From an uncultured Lachnospiraceae bacterium (lineage in GTDB: Bacteria > Bacillota > Clostridia > Lachnospirales > Lachnospiraceae), in NCBI GenBank assembly GCA_946403625.1, contig CAMJAP010000026.1:1-32235 (forward strand): 32,235 nt of DNA, written 5' to 3'. Each line of letters starts with the position of its first letter. The first letter of the stretch is position 1. Under the pieces are notes generated by a model, which saw only the letters and a list, made by a program, of their open reading frames with translations, was not told where the DNA came from and ran no database searches. Shown here piece after piece: positions 13,183-17,002 of this stretch. The translations under genes and the position numbers were made by a program.

Positions 13183-14559
13183 ATGTATCAGATTGATTTT
13201 CAAAAACCGATTCATGTACATTTCATCGGCATCGGCGGCATCAGCATGAGCGGCCTGGCCGAGATCCTGCTTTCCAAACATTTCCCGGTTTCCGGTTCCG
13301 ATTCCAAAGCCAGCGACCTGACCAGACATCTGAGCGCCCTCGGCGCCAATGTCTACATCGGACAGAGTGCCGGTAACCTGACGGATGATATCGACCTGGT
13401 GGTATACACGGCCGCCATCTCCAAAGAGAATCCCGAGTGGAATGCGGCTCTGGAGCGCGGTATCCCGATGCTCACCCGGGCACAGCTGCTGGGCCAGTTG
13501 ATGAAAAACTATCTGATCCCGATCAACATTGCCGGAACCCACGGCAAGACCACGACCACCTCTATGGTTTCCGAGATCCTGATCCACGCCGGCTGCGATC
13601 CCACCCTTTCTCTGGGCGGTATCTTAAAAAGCATCGGCGGCAACCTGCGCATCGGACATTCCGACTATTTCGTTGCGGAAGCCTGCGAATATACAAACAG
13701 CTATCATTCGTTCTTTCCGCGTATCAGCCTGATCCTTAATATAGAAGAAGACCATCTGGACTTTTTCCGGGACATCAACGAGATCCGTGCATCCTTCCGT
13801 ACCTTTATGGAACTGCTGCCGGCAGACGGTGCCCTCATCATCAACGGTATGATCGACGATGTGGACAAACTGACCGCCGACCTGCCCTGCCCGGTGATCA
13901 CCTACGGCGATGCCCCGCTGTACGATTACTATCCGACGGATATCACCTTTGACGAAATGGGGCGCGGAAACTACACGCTGCATCACGGCGAGGAAAGCTA
14001 TCCGGTGAAGCTGGGCGTGGTCGGCATTCACAATGTCTACAACTCTCTCGCCGCCATCGCTCTGGCCGAGTATCTGGGCATTGCCAGAGAGCATATCCTG
14101 GCAGCTCTGGAAGCCTTTACCGGTACGGATCGCCGCTTTGAAAAGAAAGGCGAGATCGGCGGTGTCACGATCCTGGATGATTACGCACACCACCCGACCG
14201 AGATCCGTGCAACGCTGAATGCCGCAAAGAACTATCCGCACAAGAAACTCTGGTGCGTGTTCCAGCCGCATACCTACACCCGTACCAAAGCCTTCTTGGA
14301 TGACTTTGCCGATGCCCTGACGCTCGCCGATGCTGTGATCCTCACGGATATCTACGCCGCAAGAGAACAGAATACCGTGGGCGTCACCTCCCGCGATCTG
14401 CTGGCAAAGCTGCAGGCCAAAGGAAAAGAAACGCATTATTTCTCCTATTTTGACGACATAGAGAACTTCTTATTGCTGAATGCACAGCCCGGTGATGTCG
14501 TACTCACCATGGGTGCCGGCGATGTTGTACAGATTGGTGAACACCTTCTCGGGAAATAG
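13183..14559 (+). CDS. murC: UDP-N-acetylmuramate--L-alanine ligase
   Basis: MurC adds L-alanine to UDP-N-acetylmuramic acid using ATP, starting the peptide stem of peptidoglycan in the cytosol. The 458-residue protein has the N-terminal Rossmann mark FIGIGGISMSGLAEIL. The ATP loop GTHGKTTTT lies at 118-126, EACEY and LNIEEDHLDFF in the central domain, and DDYAHHPTEIRATLNAA, the conserved C-terminal Mur-ligase motif. AAAGGAGAT lies 9 nt before the ATG. It stands alone, read away from glgC, with the replication pair next on the same strand. Confidence 0.97.
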   Translation: MYQIDFQKPIHVHFIGIGGISMSGLAEILLSKHFPVSGSDSKASDLTRHLSALGANVYIGQSAGNLTDDIDLVVYTAAISKENPEWNAALERGIPMLTRAQLLGQLMKNYLIPINIAGTHGKTTTTSMVSEILIHAGCDPTLSLGGILKSIGGNLRIGHSDYFVAEACEYTNSYHSFFPRISLILNIEEDHLDFFRDINEIRASFRTFMELLPADGALIINGMIDDVDKLTADLPCPVITYGDAPLYDYYPTDITFDEMGRGNYTLHHGEESYPVKLGVVGIHNVYNSLAAIALAEYLGIAREHILAALEAFTGTDRRFEKKGEIGGVTILDDYAHHPTEIRATLNAAKNYPHKKLWCVFQPHTYTRTKAFLDDFADALTLADAVILTDIYAAREQNTVGVTSRDLLAKLQAKGKETHYFSYFDDIENFLLLNAQPGDVVLTMGAGDVVQIGEHLLGK

Positions 14560-14631
14560 ACTTTTTCTTCCCCCTATTTGCCGGAGAAGTCCGACAGATC
14601 AAGGCTCATTTGGGGGCAGAAAAAAAACTTT

Positions 14632-14649
14632 TCAACAAAATATTGTTGA
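14632..14649. repeat. Small inverted repeat after murC
   Basis: TCAACAA-AATA-TTGTTGA is a perfect 7-bp inverted repeat in an AT-rich tract about 70 nt past murC. It is followed by TTACTTTTCTTGATTTT, so it could act as a weak terminator for murC, or be part of the DnaA-box region just downstream. Confidence 0.35.
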
Positions 14650-14693
14650 TTACTTTTCTTGATTTTACGCGGATTTCGGGTCCTAAATCCTAC

Positions 14694-14749
14694 TTGTCCA
14701 CATTATCCACAAGCCCGCAAACGCCCATTGTATATGGGCTTGTGGATAG
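14694..14749 (+). promoter_or_regulatory. DnaA box cluster ahead of dnaD-dnaC
   Basis: Two DnaA-type 9-mers lie back to back, TTGTCCACA (14694-14702) and the perfect consensus TTATCCACA (14703-14711). A third in reverse orientation, TGTGGATAG (14741-14749; reverse CTATCCACA), matches at 8 of 9. The cluster ends 7 bp before the -35 of the promoter for the primosome gene pair. DnaA is the initiator that also acts as a transcription factor at such boxes. I infer DnaA control of dnaD-dnaC; a replication-origin role is less likely because no dnaA or dnaN is nearby. Confidence 0.7.
14704..14748. repeat. 13-bp inverted repeat with a nested rival hairpin
   Basis: TATCCACAAGCCC (14704-14716) and GGGCTTGTGGATA (14736-14748) are perfect 13-bp arms. 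Within the 19-nt loop, GCCCAT (14723-14728) can instead pair with ATGGGC (14734-14739), which uses part of the right arm, so two structures exclude each other. The outer arms coincide with the two inward-facing DnaA boxes. Confidence 0.65.
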
Positions 14750-14756
14750 TGATCTA

Positions 14757-14784
14757 TTGATTTTCACGGTCCAAGTGTTATACT
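14757..14784 (+). promoter_or_regulatory. Promoter for dnaD-dnaC
   Basis: TTGATT (14757-14762), 16-nt spacer ending TGT, TATACT (14779-14784), giving an extended -10 as well as a fair -35. It lies between the DnaA boxes and the dnaD-like gene, leaving a leader of about 45-50 nt. Confidence 0.65.
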
Positions 14785-14838
14785 TTTTCATGCAAATCCC
14801 AAAGAAAAAAAAATACGAAAAACGGAAGTAAATTACAA

Positions 14839-16005
14839 ATGTTGCCTATTGACTTAACACTGGACGGAAGTACCGGAGTCACTCTCCTGTCCAACATCTT
14901 TATCGATCATTATATGAAGGATGCCAACGATGTGCAGATCAAGGTATACCTGTATCTTCTCAGGACCGTTTCCGCAGGTCGCGCCGCCGATCTCAATACA
15001 CTCGCCGATTTTTTGAATTGTTCCGAACGTGATATCATCCGCGCCCTGCGTTATTGGGCGAATCAGGGCGTTTTGTCGTTAAGTTACGACCAGGCGCTCA
15101 TGGTCAGCGGAAATGATTTTTATGAGGGCCGTCTGTCCGGCATCCGTCTGCAGAATCTGCACCAGCCGGCAGTCATGTCTTCCAACGGCAGCTCCAACGG
15201 ATTTTCCAATGGTTTTTCCACGATCCCCGTTTCGACGGCTGCCCCTGTCGATAACCGTGCAAACACTACGGCTCCGGCACATCCGCAGTCCTTTGCGTCT
15301 GCCGTATCCCTGCCGGATCCCGCAACCTGCAAAGCATCCTATACCATGGATGATCTGAAAGCATTCAAGTCCAAACCGGACAATATGTTTCTTTTGACTG
15401 CCGCACAGCAGTACCTGGGCGCACCTTTGAGTGAGCCGCAGTTCCGCTCCCTTCTGTTCCTTTCCGACGGACTGGGATTTTCCGCGGAATTGACCGATTA
15501 TCTGCTGCAGTACTGCATCGGCAACAAGCAGAAGAGTTTTCATTATATTGAAGCAACCGCCCTGGCCTGGGCAGAACAGGGCATCACCACCGTGGAAGAT
15601 GCCAAGGCCAAAACGCATCCGAAGGACGACCGCGAAAGTGCCGCCATTATGACCTGGCTGGGCCGCACCGGTACTCCCGCTCCCGAGGAAGCACGACTGA
15701 TCCATCGCTGGCTGCGCATCTACGCCTGCCCGATGCCGCTCATTGAAGAAGCCTGCCGTCGCGCGGTACTTGCCGTATCGACCAACCGCTTCTCCTATAC
15801 CGAAAAGATCCTGAAGAGCTGGCACGATCAGGGACTGATGACACTGGAGGCGGTAAACGCTGCCGATGAAGCTTTCCGACAGGCTACCCGCCCGCAGGTT
15901 TCTGCCGCAAAAGGACAGAATTCCGGCAAGCACAGTTCCTATGCCAATATGAAGCAGCACGATTATGACTTTGATGAGCTGACCAAAACGCTGATCAACA
16001 ATTAA
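14839..16005 (+). CDS. DnaD/DnaB-type primosome protein
   Basis: DnaD and DnaB of Firmicutes remodel DNA at origins and stalled forks so that the helicase can be loaded. This 388-residue protein has an N-terminal winged-helix part (about residues 20-90; TLADFLNCSERDIIRALRYW). A Ser/Asn/Gly-rich linker follows with a short SNG repeat (DNA 15178-15219). Two DnaD C-terminal-type domains are in tandem: one at about 185-255 (YLGAPLSEPQFRSLLFL, then YIEATALAWAEQGI), one at about 270-345 (WLGRTGTPAPEEARLIHRWL, then FSYTEKILKSWHDQGLMT). The ribosome site is weak (GGAAG 11 nt ahead). The downstream loader gene starts 10 nt later, so they are an operon. Which Bacillus protein it equals (DnaD or DnaB) cannot be settled by eye. 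Confidence 0.85.
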   Translation: MLPIDLTLDGSTGVTLLSNIFIDHYMKDANDVQIKVYLYLLRTVSAGRAADLNTLADFLNCSERDIIRALRYWANQGVLSLSYDQALMVSGNDFYEGRLSGIRLQNLHQPAVMSSNGSSNGFSNGFSTIPVSTAAPVDNRANTTAPAHPQSFASAVSLPDPATCKASYTMDDLKAFKSKPDNMFLLTAAQQYLGAPLSEPQFRSLLFLSDGLGFSAELTDYLLQYCIGNKQKSFHYIEATALAWAEQGITTVEDAKAKTHPKDDRESAAIMTWLGRTGTPAPEEARLIHRWLRIYACPMPLIEEACRRAVLAVSTNRFSYTEKILKSWHDQGLMTLEAVNAADEAFRQATRPQVSAAKGQNSGKHSSYANMKQHDYDFDELTKTLINN

Positions 16006-16015
16006 AGGAGCAGTT

Positions 16016-17002
16016 ATGTCCCTGACCAACGAACAGTTTCAAAAGATCAGCCGTATCTACGAAGAACGGCGCTTAAATAATGATTATCAACTGATGCAGC
16101 GCAAGGAAGAGATCTATCAAAAGATCCCTTCCTATCGTGCTTTGGACCGGCAGATCGCCGATCTTTCCATGGAATGCAGCCGCGCCCTGATCGAAGGTGC
16201 AAGCGATATGGATCCGGCAGCACGCCTGGCCGCTCTCCGCTCCCGCATTCTGGATCTGCGACTGGAGAAGAAAAAACTGCTGGAGGAAAACGGCTATCCG
16301 CGGGATTATCTGGAGCCCTCTTTCGTCTGCAGCAAATGCCGCGACACCGGCTTTATCGAAGGTGAAAAATGCAGCTGTTTCAAACAGTACGAGATCTCCT
16401 ATCTGTATGCATCTTCCAATCTGCATGAAATTCTGGAGAAGAACAACTTTTCCCTGCTTTCCAGACATTACTATACTTCCGAAGAATCCCTGGAGCATTT
16501 TGACAAGGCGGTGGAGAACTGCCGCAAGTTCATCGATCAGTTCGGGCAGGACTATCGCAATATGATGTTTTACGGCACGGTGGGCACCGGCAAATCTTTC
16601 TTAAGCGGCTGTATCGCAAAAGAACTGCTGGACCGCGGCACTTCCATTCTCTATTTCAGCGCCGTGCAATTGTTCCAGTCTCTGTTAAATGCTTCCTACA
16701 ACACCGACAAATCCGAACTGAACCGTCTGTATGATACGCTCTTCTCTTCCGATCTGCTGATCATCGACGACCTGGGAAGCGAGCACGTTACGGACTATAC
16801 CAGATCCCAGCTGTTCCAGATCCTGAACGAGCGAGCCCTGCGACAAAAACCGTTCCTGCTCTCCACCAATCTGGATCTGCAGGAGCTGCGCGAAGTCTAC
16901 TACGACCGCATTTTTTCACGGCTGATCGACAACAGTTACATCTGCCGTCTGACCGGTCCGGACATCCGAATGAAAAAAAAGATTGAAAATGATCATAAAT
17001 AG
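16016..17002 (+). CDS. Replicative helicase loader, DnaC/DnaI family
   Basis: This 328-residue AAA+ ATPase probably loads the replicative helicase DnaB/DnaC onto DNA with its DnaD-like partner. A helical N-terminal part is followed by a zinc-type cluster with Cys105, Cys108, Cys119 and Cys121 (VCSKCRDTGF, then KCSCF). The AAA+ core has Walker A GTVGTGKS (187-194), Walker B LLIIDDLGSE (247-256), and a sensor region LLSTNLDLQEL. AAAGGAG sits in the 10-nt gap after the dnaD-like stop. Length and cysteine pattern fit DnaI/DnaC-like loaders rather than IstB of insertion sequences, which lacks the long N-terminus. Confidence 0.88.
   Translation: MSLTNEQFQKISRIYEERRLNNDYQLMQRKEEIYQKIPSYRALDRQIADLSMECSRALIEGASDMDPAARLAALRSRILDLRLEKKKLLEENGYPRDYLEPSFVCSKCRDTGFIEGEKCSCFKQYEISYLYASSNLHEILEKNNFSLLSRHYYTSEESLEHFDKAVENCRKFIDQFGQDYRNMMFYGTVGTGKSFLSGCIAKELLDRGTSILYFSAVQLFQSLLNASYNTDKSELNRLYDTLFSSDLLIIDDLGSEHVTDYTRSQLFQILNERALRQKPFLLSTNLDLQELREVYYDRIFSRLIDNSYICRLTGPDIRMKKKIENDHK

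Follow-up and report, generated by a model that had tools for sequence, protein, structure and literature searches.

Conserved DnaA boxes in register with the dnaD-dnaI promoter of Lachnospiraceae suggest a DnaA-responsive promoter region

Does the replication initiator DnaA act on the promoter of its own helicase-loading partners? A short intergenic region of an uncultured Lachnospiraceae bacterium raises the question, because three DnaA boxes stand there in front of a dnaD-like gene and a helicase-loader gene. The window, by which we mean the whole 32,235-nt stretch that was analysed, is contig C26 of an assembly of 3.52 Mb in 195 contigs.

Results

What lies at the murC-dnaD junction? The features are listed below by position.

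13183..14559, plus strand: murC, the upstream neighbour (NCBIfam TIGR01082, 8.3e-143)
14694-14702, plus strand: DnaA box 1, TTGTCCACA, 8/9 match
14703-14711, plus strand: DnaA box 2, TTATCCACA, 9/9 and exact consensus, directly abutting box 1
14701..14751: inverted repeat with arms 14701-14716 and 14736-14751, holding boxes 2 and 3
14719..14742, plus strand: dyad AAAC-CCC...GGG-TTG, 7 nt past box 2, from a motif model of 84 spacers
14741-14749, minus strand: DnaA box 3, CTATCCACA, 8/9 match, reversed
14757..14784, plus strand: promoter with a poor -35, TTGATT, and an extended -10, TGTTATACT
14839..16005, plus strand: dnaD-like gene (Pfam PF07261, DnaB_2, 8.4e-38; NCBIfam TIGR01446, DnaD_dom, 1e-21)
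16016..17002, plus strand: dnaC/dnaI-like helicase-loader gene, an AAA+ ATPase (NCBIfam NF005304, PRK06835, 4.5e-104)

The original prediction had named murC upstream and the dnaD-like and dnaC/dnaI-like genes downstream, a tandem pair of boxes (one perfect) plus a reversed 8/9 box within 56 bp, and an extended -10 next to them. Pfam and NCBIfam profiles support the gene calls, all three boxes lie where they had been placed, and the extended -10 is present, with box 2 ending 67 nt before it. The two downstream genes are separated by 10 nt, and the best named match of the loader comes from a Lachnospiraceae MAG from water-deer rumen (85% identity). The promoter consists of TTGATT (14757-14762), a 16-nt spacer, TG (14776-14777) and TATACT (14779-14784); this match is weak by itself, the chance expectation for the region being 0.6 such sites. 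Of the 119 upstreams in the family and genus sets, 103 have a clear extended -10 (TGnTATAmT).

Could the boxes have come together by chance? Single boxes are ordinary in this DNA: the looser motif TTATNCACA occurs at one mismatch 31 times in the window versus 22.8 expected, and sites at most one mismatch from TTATCCACA number 10 versus a shuffle mean of 7.0. Three boxes within 56 bp were seen in 0/1000 dinucleotide-preserving shuffles of the window, which rules out a chance origin of the cluster; any pair of boxes 9 bp apart was seen in 3/1000. The promoter is accompanied by at least two consensus DnaA 9-mers beyond chance, a mark of DnaA-regulated promoters, and the locus carries several DnaA boxes outside oriC, a mark of DnaA titration sites.

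How widely is the array kept among relatives? A dnaD match was present in 198 of 200 family genomes, and the family counts come from 129 of these 198 loci. The first 90 were taken in score order, with the window included and the partial row G055 excluded; a further 39 of 40 came from lower in the list, L370 being excluded by the start rule even though the tandem is present in it. The dnaD starts were chosen by rule, so that single rows may be off, and all conservation figures are raw locus counts in which shared ancestry is ignored. A tandem was defined as a 9-bp head-to-tail arrangement whose members may carry two mismatches but must end in CCACA. By these measures, 124 of the 129 family upstreams contain a DnaA box and 102 of the 129 a head-to-tail tandem. 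Within the score-ordered set the tandem was found at 70 of 90 loci, and exact TTATCCACA occurred 180 times in 70 of the 90 upstream stretches of 450 nt; the reversed motif occurred once, and letter-permuted 9-mers (up to 60) had a mean of 0.5 and a maximum of 4 in the same stretches. One-mismatch boxes numbered 473 in 86 of 90 loci, many of them being TTATCAACA on the reverse strand in the murC end; with TTATCAACA excluded, 392 were left in 86/90, versus 17 in 15/90 for the reversed control. The later set of 39 gave a similar picture (box in 38, tandem in 32, reversed-control site in 5), as did the genus set, window included (box in 28/30), and the named set of 79 out of 80 loci, which overlaps the other sets and from which L188, without an upstream gene, was dropped (box in 78/79).

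Across the 79 named loci, exact boxes reach 3.37 per kb in the dnaD upstreams but 0.041 per kb outside them, an enrichment of ~80-fold that rules out a high box density everywhere. General conservation of the DNA around dnaD is ruled out as well, because alignment columns outside the elements carry little information. A promoter kept while its boxes are lost, the outcome that by the original prediction would refute it, is not the rule, as only five of the 129 family upstreams are box-less (L068, L073, L080, L085 and L357), and two of these, L080 and L085, are also without murC upstream. Boxes are conserved together with the promoter in relatives. The seven nearest relatives keep the forward box in seven cases and the reversed box in six; it is largely within the sub-clade of the window that the reversed third box can be clearly recognised as a DnaA box in this position.

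Over whole genomes the tandem TCCACANTDTCCACA is rare, with 44 matches in 13 genomes versus 0 for its control. By coordinates, 18 of the 44, in 11 of the 13 genomes, lie just upstream of dnaD, and in 8 of those 11 the dnaD-side matches were read directly (the window, L023, L105, L350, L360, L370, L374 and L379).

Box groups were also seen elsewhere in these genomes. The window's own genome has a further pair of exact TTATCCACA sites 45 bp apart (L344, G000:C2:41462 and 41507). A second intergenic cluster, with a tandem DnaA pair and a box 53 bp away (start to start), recurs near position 2000 of L106, L107, L108, L109, L110 and L113; an NlpC/P60 SH3 protein gene is nearby, some of the loci also having MecA, and in G035 and G138 the cluster is ~40-50 kb from dnaA. 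In three relatives (L111, L112 and L121, near position 2000), a tandem and additional boxes lie near the gene of a ribosome hibernation factor from the S30AE/HPF family.

Are the boxes placed at a fixed distance from the promoter? The 90, 30 and 79 rows of the three sets collapse to 189 distinct upstreams, 155 of which have a clear extended -10 (34 were excluded); 147 of the 155 have a plus-strand box within 130 nt and make up the spacing sample. Measured back from the -10, the end of the last box is 65-71 nt away in 69 of these loci, 74-80 nt in 37, 47-53 nt in 14, 56-60 nt in 8, 86-89 nt in 5 and elsewhere in 14. When any box is counted, 129 of the 147 loci have one ending at 65-71 or 74-80 nt, and of the 307 boxes at 40-100 nt, 199 end in these two intervals versus 70 if they were evenly spread. 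Among the less similar loci of the later set, 28/31 have some box at 65-71 or 74-80 nt; their last box falls there in 13/31 and at 52-53 nt in 10/31, and in the loci read a last box at 52-53 nt is a third box 14 nt past the tandem. The distance from the -10 to the ATG is loose by contrast, its middle half running from 43 to 70.5 nt. If transcription begins ~12 nt past the first base of the -10, as is the usual rule, the boxes occupy positions of about -80 to -100. Register to the -10, conservation across the family and a place at the dnaD-dnaI promoter are together what is expected of a DnaA site acting on a promoter.

Between the last box and the -35, the 84 spacers modelled share a 24-nt dyad, AAACCC-N11-GGGTTTG, whose best site lies 7-9 nt past the last box in 58/84 and scores above 6 in 54/84. 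The model scored 499, and shuffled spacers, given fewer iterations and fewer restarts in the fitting, reached 66-76. When whole spacers were searched for motifs without guidance, again with fewer iterations for the shuffled fits, mainly the -35 region came up. The common core CCTTGATTTTACTGG occurs in both orientations at the dnaD spacer. The dyad was not upheld as a private site of the dnaD promoter: its commonest core, CCTTGWDWWTACTGG, is found in 104/200 family genomes (0-7 each), often beside tRNA genes among the 19 stretches fetched. Copies of CCTTGATTTTACTGG flanked by AAAC/GTTT (L325-L343) recur beside tRNA genes or near contig ends, and these repeats, similar to the dyad core, are possibly an integration or other repeat site. 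The conserved dyad between boxes and promoter is a new observation.

The inverted repeat, absent from the original prediction, has arms of 16 nt that are 94% complementary and an RNA fold z of ~ -6. It has no T run on its 3' side, which rules it out as an intrinsic terminator, and a scan of window positions 14500-14900 for a GC-rich stem followed by a T run found 0. Many relatives have an extra box cluster 3' of the murC stop: inverted pairs TATCCACA...TGTGGATA, 8-45 nt apart, occur in 87/189 upstreams versus 0 for the reversed-motif control among the same 189, and 73 of the 87 (73/189 upstreams) are followed by at least 6 T in 10. As read from the DNA, the terminator-like stem in those relatives is two DnaA boxes at once, a putative protein site and RNA stem in one. 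Examples just past the murC stop include L003-L010 and others. The window's nearest relatives do not have this murC-side cluster, and the window's own inverted box pair sits closer to the promoter than that cluster does. A terminator-like hairpin made of DnaA boxes is a new observation.

Is the array confined to the family? The loader profile matched 195/196 genomes of the class, and for comparison we took 40 loci with good loader matches, each from a different other family, two of these families belonging to the same order. A DnaD-like gene lies just 5' of the loader gene in 39/40 of these loci; a forward tandem was found in 0/40 whole stretches and murC upstream in 0/40, while murC adjoins dnaD in 88/90, 27/29 and 77/80 loci of the three family sets. 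By the start rule, a box within one mismatch was present in 4/39 other-family loci versus 3/39 for the reversed control, one of the four (L305) having an exact box at -16. Because two of the 39 have <70 nt upstream (L297 and L315) and some starts are doubtful, whole stretches were scanned too; they gave 25 boxes versus 18 reversed, and 4 exact versus 0 reversed, with a sole reverse tandem among the 40, in L317. As far as sampled, the array seems to be family-specific, and the array and the murC neighbourhood appear to go together in the family, while the gene pair is widespread.

Where does the locus lie relative to the replication origin? GC skew along the complete relative G185 goes from -0.207 (705-720 kb) to +0.195 (724-739 kb), with dnaA lying between, at 722 kb; samples taken to either side of dnaD (~1000 kb), over 930 to 1065 kb, run from +0.18 to +0.24. 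In this one relative the skew changes sign at dnaA and shows no sign change at the dnaD locus, which rules out a main origin there. The window's genome has its dnaA on contig C48, in an ordinary box-rich region with DnaA boxes of its own in front. Eight relatives carry dnaD and dnaA on a single contig, 0.15-0.67 Mb apart, two of these distances (G191 and G102) being measured across contig ends as if circular. The DnaA of the window's genome matches PF00308 (2.4e-64), and direct reading of the protein found KKDHSTVLHG near its end, which we take to be the DHSTV-type box-reading motif; with the motif so understood, the genome encodes a DnaA with a box-reading domain.

Discussion

What does the array do? 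We think it fairly probable that the locus is a DnaA-responsive promoter region controlling dnaD-dnaI transcription, because DnaA control accounts jointly for the consensus boxes, the tandem, the register and the identity of the genes. DnaA would bind the head-to-tail 9-mers, with box 2 as the best match, and box 3 may help binding in the window's sub-clade. Bound ~80-100 bp upstream of the expected start and in register, it would act on RNA polymerase, whose promoter here combines a poor -35 with a strong extended -10. Since the boxes are upstream and in register and the -35 is poor, activation is somewhat likelier than repression. Of the original reading of DnaA control, the boxes at the dnaD-dnaI promoter stand, being conserved and in register, while the reversed box proves to be mainly a feature of the sub-clade. 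Against DnaA control stand the five box-less family upstreams, the 14/147 last boxes that lie outside all preferred distances, the dyad, through which another protein may be the chief regulator, and the lack of dnaD and dnaB-dnaI among the ten DnaA regions strongest in vitro in B. subtilis (PMC4447404). An array that lies upstream in register may also be structural in function.

A feedback loop is plausible in addition: DnaA would set the supply of DnaD and DnaI, and DnaD would damp its own promoter, as suggested by analogy with B. subtilis, where DnaD inhibits cooperative DnaA binding according to the available part of the report (PMC5295017). A larger, family-only circuit is possible though doubtful. 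In it the junction formed when murC came to precede dnaD-dnaI would have become a DnaA sensor, the tandem array in register activating the loader genes through array, dyad and extended -10, and DnaD loosening DnaA cooperativity; in many members DnaA would also sit on the murC-side hairpin stem, so that initiator level would set loader supply and perhaps murC read-through.

Might the boxes instead be a sink? A site that titrates or inactivates DnaA, on the model of the B. subtilis box clusters or E. coli datA, would soak it up once the locus is copied, its place at a promoter being secondary. There are several boxes per locus, dnaD lies at the distances from dnaA given above, and removal of six clusters outside oriC leads to early initiation in B. 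subtilis, as described in the accessible text of PMC5295017 and PMC13220808. A sink needs no register to a promoter, however, yet 129/147 loci show it, and the window holds three boxes only. Pure titration, the other alternative in the original prediction, is made less likely by the register and we consider it unlikely; the murC-side cluster is the likeliest place for it.

The dyad raises another reading, in which a different protein may be the main regulator of the promoter, reading the region mainly via AAACCC-N11-GGGTTT, and DnaA merely modulates or is blocked. The conservation of the dyad 7-9 nt past the last box, in 58 of 84 spacers, speaks for it. The boxes, however, are exact DnaA consensus and occur in more loci than the dyad, the box count and not the dyad count is extreme against controls, and the core also recurs at other genomic sites, tRNA genes often being close by; we hold this reading to be quite improbable. 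A secondary or main origin at the locus, suggested by tandem DnaA boxes adjoining replication-initiation genes, seems very improbable, given the ordinary dnaA region elsewhere in the window's genome and the skew of G185, a single genome whose pattern is compatible with a weak second origin.

How does DnaA control of dnaD-dnaI compare with known systems? Titles and abstract beginnings in the open-access literature, a body that leaves most subscription papers outside, yielded no report of DnaA boxes at dnaD or in Lachnospiraceae. Transcript studies in B. subtilis reportedly consider how DnaA affects replication genes, perhaps dnaB-dnaI among them; the idea, though not the array, would then have a precedent. 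The available portion of PMC4447404 names sda as a gene that B. subtilis DnaA activates, and ywlC, vpr, yyzF-yydD, trmE-noc and ywcI-sacT as genes that it apparently represses; the ten DnaA regions strongest in vitro include neither dnaD nor dnaB-dnaI. Those promoters resemble ours in that DnaA 9-mers cluster next to them at a distance from oriC; as far as that text goes, they differ in that the putative target here is the dnaD-dnaI pair, the arrangement is conserved across a family, and a 9-bp head-to-tail tandem stands in register with an extended -10 beside a dyad (PMC4447404). Caulobacter crescentus dnaB and dnaQ belong to the DnaA regulon and likewise have DnaA boxes upstream of replication-machinery genes; there the target is the helicase itself, not the loader, in a distant phylum, and the excerpt describes no such array (PMC8203912). 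The B. subtilis clusters that serve as initiation control sites are similar as non-oriC box groups but act through the level of free DnaA, whereas here register to a promoter is kept (PMC5295017 and PMC13220808, both in part). Autoregulation of dnaA-dnaN, as outlined in the accessible part of PMC13220808, also places initiator boxes at a replication-gene promoter; here the target is not dnaA and the site is outside oriC. For C. difficile, a DnaD homologue is mentioned and no such array in the available passages of PMC7561715.

If DnaA control of dnaD-dnaI is true, a major gut and rumen family would have wired its initiator to the supply of the proteins that the initiator must recruit. The array through which this would work was seen, as far as sampled, in that family only, although dnaD-dnaI itself is much more widespread in the class. 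The promoter would be usable as a reporter of active DnaA, and the arrangement would offer a simple, testable route coupling initiation competence to DnaA level in bacteria for which little has been found on replication control.
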